From positions 62,001-126,000 of the forward strand of contig NZ_VJMG01000030.1 in assembly GCF_007004135.1 (NCBI RefSeq): 64,000 nucleotides of DNA, written 5' to 3'. Positions 34,962 to 39,315 of this stretch are shown piece by piece. This stretch comes from Affinirhizobium straminoryzae. GTDB taxonomy: Bacteria; Pseudomonadota; Alphaproteobacteria; Rhizobiales; Rhizobiaceae. The notes beneath the pieces were generated by a model. The model ran no database searches. It worked only from the letters and a program-made list of their open reading frames with translations, and was not told the DNA's origin. The position numbers and the translations under genes were made by a program. Each line of letters begins with the position of its first letter. Within the stretch, counting starts at the first letter, position 1.

Positions 34962-35549
34962 ATGGCATCGCGCGCATACAACATTCCCAACCTCCTGACC
35001 TATGCGCGCATCGTGGCCGTGCCGGTCGTCGTCGCGTGCTTTTTCGTGGAAGGCCGGCTGCAGAGTTCCGACGTGGCGCGCTGGACGGCGCTCGGCATCT
35101 TCGTCATTGCCTCGATCACCGATTACCTCGACGGCTATCTCGCCCGCATCTGGAACCAGACCTCCAATATCGGCCGCATGCTCGATCCGATCGCCGACAA
35201 GCTGCTGGTGGCCTCCGTGCTGCTGCTGATGGCCGCAGACGGCACGATTGCCGGCTGGTCGCTCTGGGCCGCCATCACCATTCTGTGCCGCGAGATTCTC
35301 GTATCGGGCCTTCGCGAATATCTGGCGGGCCTCAAGGTGGCGGTGCCGGTCACCCGTATCGCCAAATGGAAGACGGCAATCCAGATGGTGTCGATCGCCT
35401 TCCTGCTGGCGGGCCCCGCCGGCGACAAGTTCGGCCTTCACACGACCACGCTTGGCATTACCCTGCTGTGGCTTGCGGCCATCCTGACGATCTATACCGG
35501 CTATGACTACTTCAAGGCCGGCCTCAAGCATGTGGTGGACGAAGAATGA
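34962..35549 (+). CDS. pgsA: CDP-diacylglycerol-glycerol-3-phosphate 3-phosphatidyltransferase
   Basis: A 195-residue inner-membrane enzyme making phosphatidylglycerophosphate. The CDP-alcohol phosphotransferase motif D-G-x2-A-R-x8-G-x3-D-x3-D is complete (DGYLAR at 57-62, then G71, D75, D79). Four to five helices fit the family. It starts 95 nt after uvrC. It overlaps moaD by 4 nt. Confidence 0.96.
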   Translation: MASRAYNIPNLLTYARIVAVPVVVACFFVEGRLQSSDVARWTALGIFVIASITDYLDGYLARIWNQTSNIGRMLDPIADKLLVASVLLLMAADGTIAGWSLWAAITILCREILVSGLREYLAGLKVAVPVTRIAKWKTAIQMVSIAFLLAGPAGDKFGLHTTTLGITLLWLAAILTIYTGYDYFKAGLKHVVDEE

Positions 35550-35803
35550 AGGTGAAGCTCGTCTATTTCGCCTGGGTGCGCGAGCGCATCGACAAGCCGG
35601 AAGAGGACCTCGACCTGCCGGACAGCGTCGTGACGGCCGGCGACCTGCTGCAGCACCTGAAGACGCTCGGTGACGGCTATGAAGCGGCCCTGCAATATCC
35701 GGAGGTGATCCGGGTTGCTGTCAATCAGGAGCATGTCGATCACGACGAACCGATTGCCGGCGCCCGTGAAATCGGCATTTTTCCGCCGATGACGGGCGGG
35801 TGA
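35546..35803 (+). CDS. moaD: Molybdopterin synthase small subunit MoaD
   Basis: An 85-residue ubiquitin-fold sulfur carrier ending in Gly-Gly (PPMTGG), the residue pair that becomes a thiocarboxylate. FAWVRERID near the N terminus is the usual MoaD stretch. It works with MoaE in molybdopterin cofactor synthesis; a molybdoenzyme lies elsewhere in this window. ATG overlaps the pgsA stop (ATGA). Confidence 0.95.
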   Translation: MKVKLVYFAWVRERIDKPEEDLDLPDSVVTAGDLLQHLKTLGDGYEAALQYPEVIRVAVNQEHVDHDEPIAGAREIGIFPPMTGG

Positions 35804-35881
35804 AGCCCGGGAGCAGCCCCCTATGCCCTGCCGGGCATCGCACGAAACGGCATAGGTGCCGGACAAGGTGAGGCATTCGAC

Positions 35882-36346
35882 ATGACGACACCCACCATCC
35901 GCGTCCAGCGCGAAAATTTCGACCTCCAGACGGAAATTGACCGGCTGACGGCCGGGCGGGCGGATATCGGCGCGGTCGTCACCTTTACCGGCCTCTGCCG
36001 CGATGAAGGCGGTAGCCTGACGGCGCTGGAGCTGGAGCATTATCCCGGCATGGCGGAGGCCGAAATGCGTCGCATCGGCGAGGAAGCGATTTCGCGCTTC
36101 TCCCTGCTCGGCCTCACTGCCGTGCACCGCTATGGAAAGATCGCGCCGGGCGAGACCATCGTGATGGTGGTGGCCTCGGCCCCGCACCGGCAGGCGGCCT
36201 TCGACGGCGCCAGCTTCGTAATGGATTTTCTGAAGACCGCCGCCCCCTTCTGGAAGAAGGAGCACCTGCAGGATGGCTCCGCAGGCGGCTGGGTCTCGGC
36301 CAAGGATGCCGACGATCGGGCGCGGGACAAGTGGATCACGCGCTGA
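35882..36346 (+). CDS. moaE: Molybdopterin synthase catalytic subunit MoaE
   Basis: A 154-residue MoaE that transfers sulfur from MoaD to precursor Z. VVTFTGLCRDEGG (~33-45) and LELEHYPGMAEAEM (~51-64) are family signatures; the active Lys pair is in APFWKKEHL (~122-130). It starts 78 nt after moaD and converges on the LivH-type permease gene with a 6-nt gap. Confidence 0.96.
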   Translation: MTTPTIRVQRENFDLQTEIDRLTAGRADIGAVVTFTGLCRDEGGSLTALELEHYPGMAEAEMRRIGEEAISRFSLLGLTAVHRYGKIAPGETIVMVVASAPHRQAAFDGASFVMDFLKTAAPFWKKEHLQDGSAGGWVSAKDADDRARDKWITR

Positions 36347-36352
36347 CTCGTC

Positions 36353-37249
36353 TCACACCAGAACCCTTTCCCTCCGGCTGATCACCAGCAGCGCCACCAG
36401 GGCGCCAAGCATGACCGTATCGCGCCAGGCAACCGGGCCATAGCCGCTCCACAGCGTTTCGCCGAAGCCGAACAGGGCGGCGCCCGCGGCCGCACGCAGG
36501 GGATGGCTGTGGCCACCGGCCGCCGCGATCAGCACGATCTTCAGCCCGAAGAGGATGCCGGCGCCGAAATCCATGGTGCCGTAATGGGCGGTGGCGAGCA
36601 GGCCGGCGAGCGCCGCAAACAGCGCAGCCAGCCCATAGGCGCCGGCAAAGATACGGGCAGCCTGCACCCCGCAGAGTTCGGCGGCCAGCGGATCGTCGCA
36701 GACGGCGCGCCAGTGTCGCCCCCAGCGGCTTGCCGCGAGAAACCATCCGCCGCCCGCGACCAGCAGCAGCAGAACAAGGCTGTTCAGCGCCTGCAAGAGC
36801 GTCAGACTTGCCGTGCCCTCCTCTCCGCGCCAGAGACGGAGCGGCGTATTGAGAAAGGGCGGCAGCCAGAGTTCGCGCGTGCCGGAGGCGAGCCGTGCCG
36901 CTTCCATCAGGACCAGCAGCAGGCCGAGCGAGGCAACGGTGAGCGCGTTCGGCGAGACGCGGGCCAGCGGCGCGACCACCTGCCGGCCGATGACCACACC
37001 ACCGCCCGCCACCAGCGTCACGGCCGCAAGGCCCCCCAGCGAGAGCGCTGCCGGAAAGGTGAGGAACAGAACATTCCAGCCGGCATGGGCGACCAGCAGG
37101 AACAGGTGGCCGGCGGCGGCAAACAGCGCGCCATAGCTGATGTCCGCCCGCTTGGTGACGGCAAAGGCAATCGCGTAGCCGAAGGCGAGCGCCGCATAGA
37201 GGCTGGCGATCGGCACGGCATTCAAAAGCTGTTGCAGGGCGTAGAGCAT
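36353..37249 (-). CDS. LivH-type branched-chain amino acid ABC permease (orphan)
   Basis: A 298-residue inner-membrane permease with about eight helices. LYAALAFGYAIAFAVTKRADISYGALFAA (~17-45), ARVSPNALTVASLGLLLV and ILFGLKIVLIAAAGG match LivH/LivM permeases. Neither a second permease, an ATPase nor a binding protein lies next to it, so it is an orphan subunit. ATG 37249 has only a weak ribosome binding site; the extension to 37558 is not protein-like. It is divergent from a CGNR regulator with a perfect inverted repeat between, so it is probably controlled by that regulator. Confidence 0.8.
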   Translation of the reverse strand: MLYALQQLLNAVPIASLYAALAFGYAIAFAVTKRADISYGALFAAAGHLFLLVAHAGWNVLFLTFPAALSLGGLAAVTLVAGGGVVIGRQVVAPLARVSPNALTVASLGLLLVLMEAARLASGTRELWLPPFLNTPLRLWRGEEGTASLTLLQALNSLVLLLLVAGGGWFLAASRWGRHWRAVCDDPLAAELCGVQAARIFAGAYGLAALFAALAGLLATAHYGTMDFGAGILFGLKIVLIAAAGGHSHPLRAAAGAALFGFGETLWSGYGPVAWRDTVMLGALVALLVISRRERVLV

Positions 37250-37281
37250 GGCGCGATCCAGCCGGAATGGGTGCTGAGAAT

Positions 37282-37313
37282 TATAACTGGTAAACGCAAT
37301 TTTACCAGTTATA
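37282..37313. promoter_or_regulatory. Perfect 13-bp inverted repeat between permease and CGNR gene (operator)
   Basis: Arms TATAACTGGTAAA (37282-37294) and TTTACCAGTTATA (37301-37313) match perfectly with a 6-nt spacer. It ends 7 nt before the CGNR ATG, whose GAGG Shine-Dalgarno (37316-37319) starts just beyond it, and lies 32 nt from the permease start. Its position makes it the likely binding site of the regulator, acting on both genes. A hairpin/terminator role is unlikely as it is not after a gene end. Confidence 0.8.
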
Positions 37314-37320
37314 TTGAGGC

Positions 37321-37869
37321 ATGAGCTTTTCCTGGACCCCTCACCGTTTCGCCGGCGGCGCATTGGCGCTCGATGTCGCCAACAGCGTGATCCTGCGCTT
37401 CGACCCCGCCCGCAGCATCGACCGTTTTGCGGACCCCGCACAGTTCGACGCCTTCCCGCAGGCGGCAATGGAATTTTCCGCCGAGCGCGCGCTGTTCGGG
37501 CCGTTGAAGCCGGTGCGCCCGGAGGCACGACACGTCTTTCTGACCTTTCGCGAGGCAATCGACCGGCATTTCCGGGCCGAGGCCGAGGGAGGATCCACCG
37601 ACCACACGCTGGCCGATCTTCTGGAACAGGGCGCCTGCCTGCTGCGGCTGTCCTGCGACGCGGATGGTCTGGAGGGGCAGACAGTGCGCTCGGCGCTCAG
37701 GCTGCTCGCCTTGCCGGAGCCGGACCGCCTGAAGATCTGCGGCCATTGCGGCTGGCTGTTTCTCGACCGCAGCAAGAACAGGAGCCGCTTCTGGTGCGAC
37801 ATGGCCGTGTGCGGCAACCGCGCCAAGGCCGCCCGCCATTACCGACGCAGGAAAGGGGAACAGGAATGA
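37321..37869 (+). CDS. CGNR zinc-finger/ABATE-domain transcriptional regulator
   Basis: A 182-residue regulator. The N-terminal ABATE-like ligand domain (FAGGALALDVANSV, ~10-23) is followed by a C-terminal CGNR zinc finger: CGHC (~141-144) and CDMAVCGNRAKAARHYRRRK (~160-179), giving the C-x2-C...C-x4-C-GNR ligand pattern. Such regulators are usually one-component and self-controlled. The stop overlaps the next start (ATGA), coupling it to the lipoprotein gene. Target and ligand are unknown; the divergent permease suggests an imported small molecule. Confidence 0.88.
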   Translation: MSFSWTPHRFAGGALALDVANSVILRFDPARSIDRFADPAQFDAFPQAAMEFSAERALFGPLKPVRPEARHVFLTFREAIDRHFRAEAEGGSTDHTLADLLEQGACLLRLSCDADGLEGQTVRSALRLLALPEPDRLKICGHCGWLFLDRSKNRSRFWCDMAVCGNRAKAARHYRRRKGEQE

Positions 37870-38366
37870 GAAGAAAGATCACCATGGCTGCGCTCGGCCT
37901 GCTGGCGCTTGCCGGCTGCCAGCGGGAGATGGAGAAGCTGGCGGAATTTTCCGGCCACATCTTCGTGTTCAACTATCGCCTCTCCAAGGCGAATTACGTC
38001 GTGACGCTGCGGCCGACCGCCGCTCTGCCGGACGGCGGCATGGCGATTGCCCGCTTCGAGAACCCGCGCGGCGGCGCACCCCTGGTGACGGAAGCAAAGC
38101 TTTATCCGAAGATGGAAAAGATCGTGCTGGAAAGCCCCAACCTGCAATGCGTGCGCGAGGGGCGTTCCTATGAGGTGAAGATCGATCTGGCCGATGCCCA
38201 CGGCAAGGTATTGCAGCAGCTGGAAACCAGGGTTCTCGCCACCATCGACCAGAGCATCCTGCCGGCCAATTCCATCGTCGTCGGCCCGGCCTATGACATG
38301 AACCCGAAGGTGTTCAAGCCCGGCGGCCACATTGACCTGACGCCGGTGCAGGATTGCCCGGCCTGA
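37866..38366 (+). CDS. Putative lipoprotein
   Basis: A 166-residue protein with a lipoprotein signal: MRRKITMAALGLLALAGC has the LAGC lipobox with Cys18. No domain recognised in the remaining ~148 residues, which look like a beta-rich fold (NYVVTLRPTAALPDGG, YEVKIDLADAHG). ATG 37866 overlaps the CGNR stop by 4 nt, so it is in the same transcript. Position in the outer membrane or inner membrane leaflet is not evident (Gln follows Cys18, favouring outer membrane). Confidence 0.78.
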   Translation: MRRKITMAALGLLALAGCQREMEKLAEFSGHIFVFNYRLSKANYVVTLRPTAALPDGGMAIARFENPRGGAPLVTEAKLYPKMEKIVLESPNLQCVREGRSYEVKIDLADAHGKVLQQLETRVLATIDQSILPANSIVVGPAYDMNPKVFKPGGHIDLTPVQDCPA

Positions 38367-38430: not shown

Positions 38431-39315
38431 ATGTTCCGTGGTCTTTCCGCCTTTCCGCCCACGCCGACCGATGCGGACGGCATCGTGCAGCCGGACGCCC
38501 TGTCGCGCCTGGTCGATCGTCTCGCGACCGCCGGCGTCGATTCCATCGGCCTGCTCGGCAGCACCGGTGGCTATGCCTATCTGTCGCGTCCGGAGCGGCG
38601 CCGCGCCGTCGAGATCGCGGTTAAGACGCTCGCCGGCCGCACGCCGCTGATCGTCGGCGTCGGGGCGCTGCGCACCGACGAGGCCATGGCGCTCGCCGGA
38701 GATGCGGCCAAGGCCGGCGCCAACGGCCTGCTGCTGGCCCCCGTTTCCTACACGCCGCTGACGGAGGACGAGGTGTTTGCCCATTTTGCCGCGGTGGCCG
38801 GTGCGACGGATCTGCCGCTGGTCATCTACAACAATCCCGGCACCACGAAATTCACCTTCAGCCCGGACCTGATCGTACGGCTCTCCGCCATTCCGCAGAT
38901 TGCGACGGTAAAAATGCCGCTGCCGGTCGATGCCAGTTTCGAGGCGGAAATGGCCGCGCTCCGCGCCCGCCTGCCGCAGGGCTTTGCCATCGGCTATAGC
39001 GGTGACTGGGGGGCGGCAGAGGCGCTGCTGTCCGGCGCCGATGCCTGGTACAGCGTGGTCGCCGGCCTTCTGCCAGCCCAGGCTCTGGCGCTGACCCGCG
39101 CCGCCCAGGCCGGCGATGCCGCCGAAGCGCACCGTCTGAACCAGGCCTTCGACCCGCTCTGGACCCTGTTCAAGCAATTCGGCAGTTTTCGCGTGATGTA
39201 TGCCATGGCCGCGACGCTCGACCTGTTCCACGCCGCCCCGCACCGCCCGGTACTGCCGATCCCGGACGAGGCCCTGCCGCGCGTAGCCGCGGCGCTGGAG
39301 GGGCTGCAGGACTGA
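38431..39315 (+). CDS. Dihydrodipicolinate synthase family aldolase
   Basis: A 294-residue DapA-superfamily lyase (TIM barrel). The Schiff-base Lys161 (VKMP) and Tyr133 (VIYNNPG) sit exactly at E. coli DapA numbering, but the N-terminal GTTGE loop is GSTGGYA, so DHDPS activity is doubtful and N-acetylneuraminate lyase or 2-keto-3-deoxy sugar aldolase activity are alternatives. AGGG is ~7 nt upstream of ATG 38431. It stands alone, convergent with the SpeE-like gene. Confidence 0.85.
   Translation: MFRGLSAFPPTPTDADGIVQPDALSRLVDRLATAGVDSIGLLGSTGGYAYLSRPERRRAVEIAVKTLAGRTPLIVGVGALRTDEAMALAGDAAKAGANGLLLAPVSYTPLTEDEVFAHFAAVAGATDLPLVIYNNPGTTKFTFSPDLIVRLSAIPQIATVKMPLPVDASFEAEMAALRARLPQGFAIGYSGDWGAAEALLSGADAWYSVVAGLLPAQALALTRAAQAGDAAEAHRLNQAFDPLWTLFKQFGSFRVMYAMAATLDLFHAAPHRPVLPIPDEALPRVAAALEGLQD

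Follow-up and report, generated by a model that had tools for sequence, protein, structure and literature searches.

The locus considered here raises the question of what purpose is served by a perfect inverted repeat that lies between the gene for a CGNR zinc-finger protein and the divergently oriented gene of a LivH-like permease. The window, the whole stretch of 64,000 nucleotides that was analysed, carries this palindrome at 37282-37313, in an intergenic position with the CGNR gene on one flank and the permease gene on the other (Table 1). As the first-pass annotation had described, the two 13-nt arms are 100% complementary and are separated by a 6-nt spacer, and the gap to the permease start codon, which begins at 37249 on the minus strand, is indeed 32 nt; on the other side, the palindrome ends 7 nt upstream of the CGNR ATG at 37321. 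The GC content of the palindrome is 28.1%, against 63.8% for the window. The motif that had been proposed for searching related genes, ACTGGTAAA-N8-TTTACCAGT, contains the wrong spacer and yields 0 matches in the window at up to 3 mismatches, while the N6 form yields one exact match.

Table 1. Features of the CGNR-permease intergenic region and its two flanking genes, with positions in the window.
Feature	Positions	Strand	Basis
LivH-like permease (BPD_transp_2), divergent, presumed co-regulated	36350-37249 (including stop)	-	PF02653, 78.9 bits, full-length match
Predicted -10 hexamer of the divergent permease, TATAAT	37280-37285	-	Sequence and orthologue conservation
Perfect inverted repeat, left arm, TATAACTGGTAAA	37282-37294	+	Inverted-repeat search
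Predicted core operator TAAC-N20-GTTA, TAACTGGTAAACGCAATTTTACCAGTTA	37284-37311	.	Sole match in the window at up to 3 mismatches
-35 position of the CGNR gene, TGGTAA (poor match), 16-nt spacer to -10	37288-37293	+	Orthologue comparison
Perfect inverted repeat, right arm, TTTACCAGTTATA	37301-37313	+	Inverted-repeat search
Predicted -10 hexamer of the CGNR gene, TATATT	37310-37315	+	Sequence; position conserved in orthologues; inferred
CGNR zinc-finger protein, 182 aa, presumed autoregulator	37321-37869	+	PF11706; structure-model likeness to 3h0n

Perfect repeats with 13-bp arms and a spacer of up to 12 nt number one in the window and one in total over 20 dinucleotide shuffles, which gives a chance expectation of approximately 0.05 such repeats per window. 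The first-pass annotation called the repeat unusually long for chance; taken alone, it is rare to a moderate degree only. It is conservation that decides.

Close orthologues were collected by searching the CGNR protein in 199 genomes of the window's family, 77 of which matched; the family loci covered most matches down to weak paralogues, with G176 and a few weak second matches left out. When the 30 best family loci were inspected without reference to the motif, the best inverted repeat within 160 nt upstream was located 3 to 11 nt before the start in 28 of them, and in these 28 it reads TATAACTGGTAAAA-N4-TTTTACCAGTTATA, exactly or nearly; in L003 and L022, the remaining two, an imperfect copy is visible by eye at the same place. 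The sequence decays in weaker paralogues, while TAAC-N20-GTTA persists in many of them, including the distant L103, L113 and L120. The wider set comprised zf-CGNR proteins from 299 genomes of the phylum (38 matched, with 30 loci for 50 places), together with 80 loci from a named genome collection, the best among 585 relatives. The 5' region of each gene was defined as 480-900 bp before the stop codon, and a control region further upstream as 1200-1620 bp.

Across this set, TAAC and GTTA at a spacing of 10, 11, 20 or 21 bp are present in 150 of 186 CGNR 5' regions, whereas one of the 182 control regions and none of the 189 coding regions contain them, although these counts are not independent because the genes are related by descent. 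The check that the first-pass annotation had put forward, namely a search for the motif before related CGNR genes, therefore comes out in its favour, and the counts place a conserved inverted candidate operator at the gene's own promoter, as befits a DNA-binding autoregulator. From the 191 genes in total, L044 and L054, loci that came from a motif search, were excluded from these three counts and from the kb-density counts, and in the remaining 189 genes the upstream DNA was too short in 3 for the 5' region and in 7 for the control region. Both loci are included in the shuffle test, the clusters, the start distances, the pair-8 counts, the tree, the hexamer counts and the second-site counts.

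The spacing itself is informative. The 186 5' regions contain N20 in 107, N21 in 19, N10 in 28 and N11 in 5 cases, against 0, 1, 0 and 0, respectively, in the 182 control regions; any other spacing from 0 to 40 occurs in at most 8 of the 186, and the off-phase spacings of 5, 6, 15 and 16 combined occur in 5. Spacings of 10-11 and 20-21 bp correspond to one and two turns of the DNA helix. In the same loci the N20 form is found 122 times in 105 kb of CGNR 5' region against 6 times in 1.23 Mb elsewhere, and in shuffled 5' regions it appears in a mean of 0.3 regions (maximum 2) against 109 of 188 real ones. Four of the six sites elsewhere are pairs in L191 and L192, positioned 94-148 bp after the CGNR stop, which perhaps control the next gene. 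Outside the window's two orthologue groups, the site, with C/G allowed in one half, is present in 106 of 133 genes; in 25 of the 186 genes even the relaxed site is absent.

Within the family, the element appears to be specific for CGNR loci. The strict form TAACTNGYNAA-N6-TTNRCNNGTTA occurs in 40 of the 199 family genomes, at one place in each, and all 40 places adjoin a CGNR start, the distance to the start of the protein match being 9-11 bp in 38, 16 bp in one and 46 bp in one. All 40 genomes fall within the 77 with a CGNR match, and the remaining 37 lack the strict form and carry looser sites or none. The strict pattern reversed was not encountered among the same family-genome matches, and a spacing control, in which the pattern was made 2 bp longer, gave 0 of 199 genomes. 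A chance origin, to which the shuffles would leave some 0.05 repeats per window, is refuted by this same-place conservation at CGNR starts, both in the strict family sites and in the wider gene set, and we regard it as next to impossible. The window's genome contains one CGNR gene and, when the looser form is applied to the whole genome, one exact site, the next best having 2 mismatches. A larger regulon in this genome was considered and rejected: the 14 other places, with 2-3 mismatches, look like chance, the looser form having 15 places in total and the reversed pattern 59.

The identity of the protein that would bind such a site is suggested by the gene beside it. The PF11706 (CGNR zinc finger) profile matches the encoded protein with 62.5 bits (cut-off 24); the protein reads CGNR in the zinc-finger motif, and the four presumed zinc cysteines, C140, C143, C159 and C164, are invariant in 41 aligned sequences, as are G165 and N166. 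The ABATE domain, PF07336, reaches 20.1 bits against a cut-off of 24.4 (E 0.001, residues 13-126), and matches at E <=0.01 are obtained in 37 of the 41 aligned proteins. An AlphaFold2 model of the CGNR protein (mean pLDDT 93.7) compared with the PDB returned 3h0n first of 118 matches, with a probability of 1.00, a modest E of 2.6e-3, a TM of 0.54 and an rmsd of 8.4. By this model comparison the protein has the same ABATE plus CGNR fold as Jann_2411 (3h0n), and the modest superposition may mean that the domains are perhaps set differently. A phmmer search with the single CGNR protein matched no chain in the PDB, and the zinc-finger family profile matched 3h0n_A alone (6.6e-10).

For Jann_2411, the available part of the structure paper reports a likely dimer, proposes nucleic acid binding by the zinc finger and a role in transcription regulation, and notes ABC transport neighbours (PMC2954205). 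By analogy, a dimer with a nucleic-acid-binding zinc finger would fit an inverted-repeat operator. The protein studied here resembles Jann_2411 in its zinc-finger family and in its length of about 180 aa; it differs in that its ABATE region falls under the Pfam cut-off and in that a conserved operator is predicted here for the family, whereas the available part of that paper gives no DNA target (PMC2954205). No DNA target site for CGNR/ABATE proteins turned up in searches of open-licence PubMed Central.

That a regulator other than the CGNR protein binds the palindrome seems very unlikely, since the loci were picked by CGNR alone, the strict form in family genomes stands exclusively beside CGNR genes, and the element persists while the divergent neighbours vary. 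Among the divergent frames of the named loci, of which the neighbour scan took 50 of 53 and which are script-chosen longest open frames rather than annotated genes, EamA was matched in 8, AzlC in 7, BPD_transp_2 in 6 and MFS_1 in 3. The six BPD_transp_2 matches probably come from window-group loci, six of the named loci belonging to those groups.

The location of the site relative to the two promoters bears on what binding would achieve. The predicted -10 hexamer of the CGNR gene stands 5 nt before its ATG, which would place a leaderless start at 37321, and that of the permease stands 30 nt before the permease start codon. In the 38 site-bearing close orthologues, the hexamer starting in GTTA reads TANNNT in 35 and TATAAT in 18, and the mirror hexamer on the permease side reads TANNNT in 35 and TATAAT in 15; in the second group of orthologues (n=20), TANNNT is present in 15 on the CGNR side and in 17 on the permease side. 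The -35 position reads TGGTAA in 21 of the 38 members of group 1, and the left half of the second-group site provides a good -35, TTGTCA, in 13 of 20. A consensus promoter scan of the window reported no promoter at the palindrome, because the -35 in the window is poor. As judged from these hexamers, the predicted operator and the core promoter occupy the same DNA.

The start codon was taken as the first in-frame ATG, GTG or TTG after the site, and some of the short distances are therefore doubtful. On this definition, 73 of 132 genes with two-turn sites have their start 9-11 nt from GTTA, so that 5-7 nt separate it from the -10 hexamer. Leaderless mRNAs are laid out in this way. Furthermore, a Shine-Dalgarno-like tetramer accompanies 21 of 119 starts within 14 nt of the site, against 18 of 41 farther starts, the former being about chance level on a rough reckoning of roughly 0.2. 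Since the near starts lie behind a conserved -10 hexamer and are mostly devoid of a Shine-Dalgarno sequence, the CGNR mRNA is probably leaderless, beginning at its own ATG, and the operator probably lies upstream of the transcript. The palindrome had been said to abut the CGNR ribosome binding site, and this probably does not hold: a single nucleotide separates the GAGG at 37316-37319 from the ATG, which is too close for a usual Shine-Dalgarno sequence, and the GAGG, probably not a ribosome binding site, is absent from the other 29 of the 30 best family loci. The related suggestion that a bound regulator could block both transcription and its own translation start survives in its first half, given the overlap with both divergent promoters, but not in its second.

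These observations also bear on whether the palindrome works as RNA, either as a terminator or as a hairpin with which the CGNR mRNA would begin, a reading to which a perfect 13-bp stem ending 7 nt before the ATG lends itself. Because the right arm is overlapped by the -10 hexamer, the CGNR mRNA probably does not include that arm, and a sequence scan for terminator-like sites found none. Compensatory stem changes were not found either: in 37 distinct close-orthologue sites, pair 8 is T-A in 16, unpaired C-A in 12, T-G in 8 and C-G in one. The T to C change is thus tolerated independently in either half, which suits a protein half-site, while an RNA stem would avoid C-A. With no terminator-like site and no covariation at pair 8, the RNA hairpin or terminator was rejected as extremely improbable.

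We hold with some confidence that the palindrome is the operator of the adjoining CGNR protein, most likely repressing both the CGNR and the permease promoters, an explanation taken here as a whole. The idea of a CGNR operator, present in the first-pass annotation, is thereby supported and broadened to the family, considering that 150 of 186 genes have a site and that all 40 strict family sites adjoin a CGNR start. In the proposed mechanism, a CGNR dimer would bind the two inverted TAAC half-sites, which, at 20 bp apart here, would be presented on the same face of the DNA at a distance of two helical turns. The operator would occupy the CGNR promoter from -35 to -10 and, owing to its symmetry, the same part of the divergent permease promoter. 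While bound, the dimer would deny RNA polymerase access to both genes, a ligand or the loss of zinc would release it, and the CGNR mRNA would start at its own ATG. The predicted overlap of the site with both divergent promoters supports control of the CGNR gene and the permease gene together.

The opposite sign of control, in which the site-bound CGNR protein would switch on the divergent permease, and perhaps its own gene as well, once its ligand is present, appears unlikely to us. In the available part of a report on Bordetella pertussis, the CGNR gene bp3097 is up 3.88 log2 together with modABC (PMC9976334); by analogy this fits a regulator whose own gene responds alongside a transporter, and it fits either sign. 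The divergent layout with a transporter would suit activation, as would the poor -35 of group 1, which is as found at activated promoters, and the second sites in 54 of the 106 site-bearing genes outside the window's two groups could serve activation there. However, activators usually bind upstream positions, not the -35 to -10 stretch that the site covers here, and the left half in group 2 retains a good -35.

Repression of both promoters by the CGNR protein, the reading that we prefer, would resemble a well-known arrangement. In TetR/TetA-type systems, an autoregulated regulator is divergent to a transporter gene and shares an operator with it, and one operator between regulator and divergent transporter is likewise predicted to control both here. 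Unlike TetR, the CGNR protein has a treble-clef zinc finger rather than a helix-turn-helix as its presumed DNA-binding domain, its half-sites lie at a distance of one or two helical turns depending on the subfamily, and its transcript is probably leaderless.

The divergent gene is like LivH-type ABC permeases in that it matches PF02653 over its full length, and it is retained by no fewer than 36 of the 38 close orthologues and 19 of the 20 in the second group. In liv operons an ABC ATPase gene lies beside the permease gene; in contrast, the permease in the loci examined has no adjoining ABC ATPase on its own strand. Of 45 orthologue loci, 43 contain the permease, and none contains an ABC ATPase motif frame, defined by a motif match to Walker A plus signature, on the permease strand within the 3 to 10 kb covered on each side (less in L069 and L122); five such frames occur on the CGNR side, at least 3 kb away. 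Two of the three permease-less orthologues are long-frame cases (L029 and L066), and the motif-frame scan does find the permease in L066.

As to the remaining neighbours, a frame at 37866-38366 (+) overlaps the CGNR stop (ATGA) and is probably co-transcribed with CGNR; it has a lipoprotein-like start by eye and no Pfam match at E 0.001. Next downstream is a dihydrodipicolinate synthase family gene (38431-39315, +; PF00701, 152.9 bits). Beyond the permease, ThiS-family (probably moaD) and MoaE genes occupy 35546-36346 (+), the MoaE and permease stops being convergent and 3 nt apart.

The occurrence of two spacings leads to the question as to how these are distributed over the family. Among the best 80 of 585 relatives, the named loci with sites carry 14 phylum labels, several on one locus only, plus two without a label. 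The labels derive from record titles, many of which belong to metagenome bins, and some of the single sites, that of L212 for example, may be due to chance. These 80 named loci have N20 or N21 in 37 cases, N10 alone in 23 and neither in 20, the latter falling to 17 once N11 is counted. In the same 80 loci, 10 of 15 from Actinomycetota are without N10, N20 or N21 (three of these having N11), as are 4 of 7 from Chloroflexota and 3 of 6 from Gemmatimonadota. When the proteins are grouped at 40% identity, the majority type of the 39 clusters is N20/N21 in 23, N10 in 4 and none in 12. A few of these last clusters nevertheless show altered half-sites in an unchanged layout (L194 and L195). The 5' regions of L145 and L148 instead carry ACCAGTA/TACTGGT-like inverted repeats, perhaps reflecting a changed specificity.

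When 104 proteins were placed in a quick tree, labels for one-turn and for two-turn spacing formed clusters and required 10 changes, site-less entries not being counted, although 43 of the 101 inner branches are weak and a few labels are doubtful (L163, L144, overlapping sites). We think it reasonably likely that, for the CGNR/ABATE family as a whole and across phyla, TAAC-N10/11-GTTA and TAAC-N20/21-GTTA represent the ancestral operator, that this operator lies within the core promoter of the gene for the regulator itself, a gene that is often leaderless, and that subfamilies have switched spacing repeatedly. All 58 site-bearing genes of the window's two groups have a single operator. In the 54 two-operator genes outside these groups, the centres are 38-54 bp apart in 46, and such double operators (e.g. 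L126, L131, L132, L137, L138 and L181) suggest, from their arrangement, cooperative binding.

CGNR/ABATE proteins are found in many phyla and were named from a structure. A precise operator, backed by controls, turns what was an annotated guess into a family-wide testable prediction, and the predicted operator would allow likely regulons to be listed genome by genome. The CGNR proteins would thus constitute a regulator family in which the spacing of the half-sites differs by one helical turn between subfamilies.
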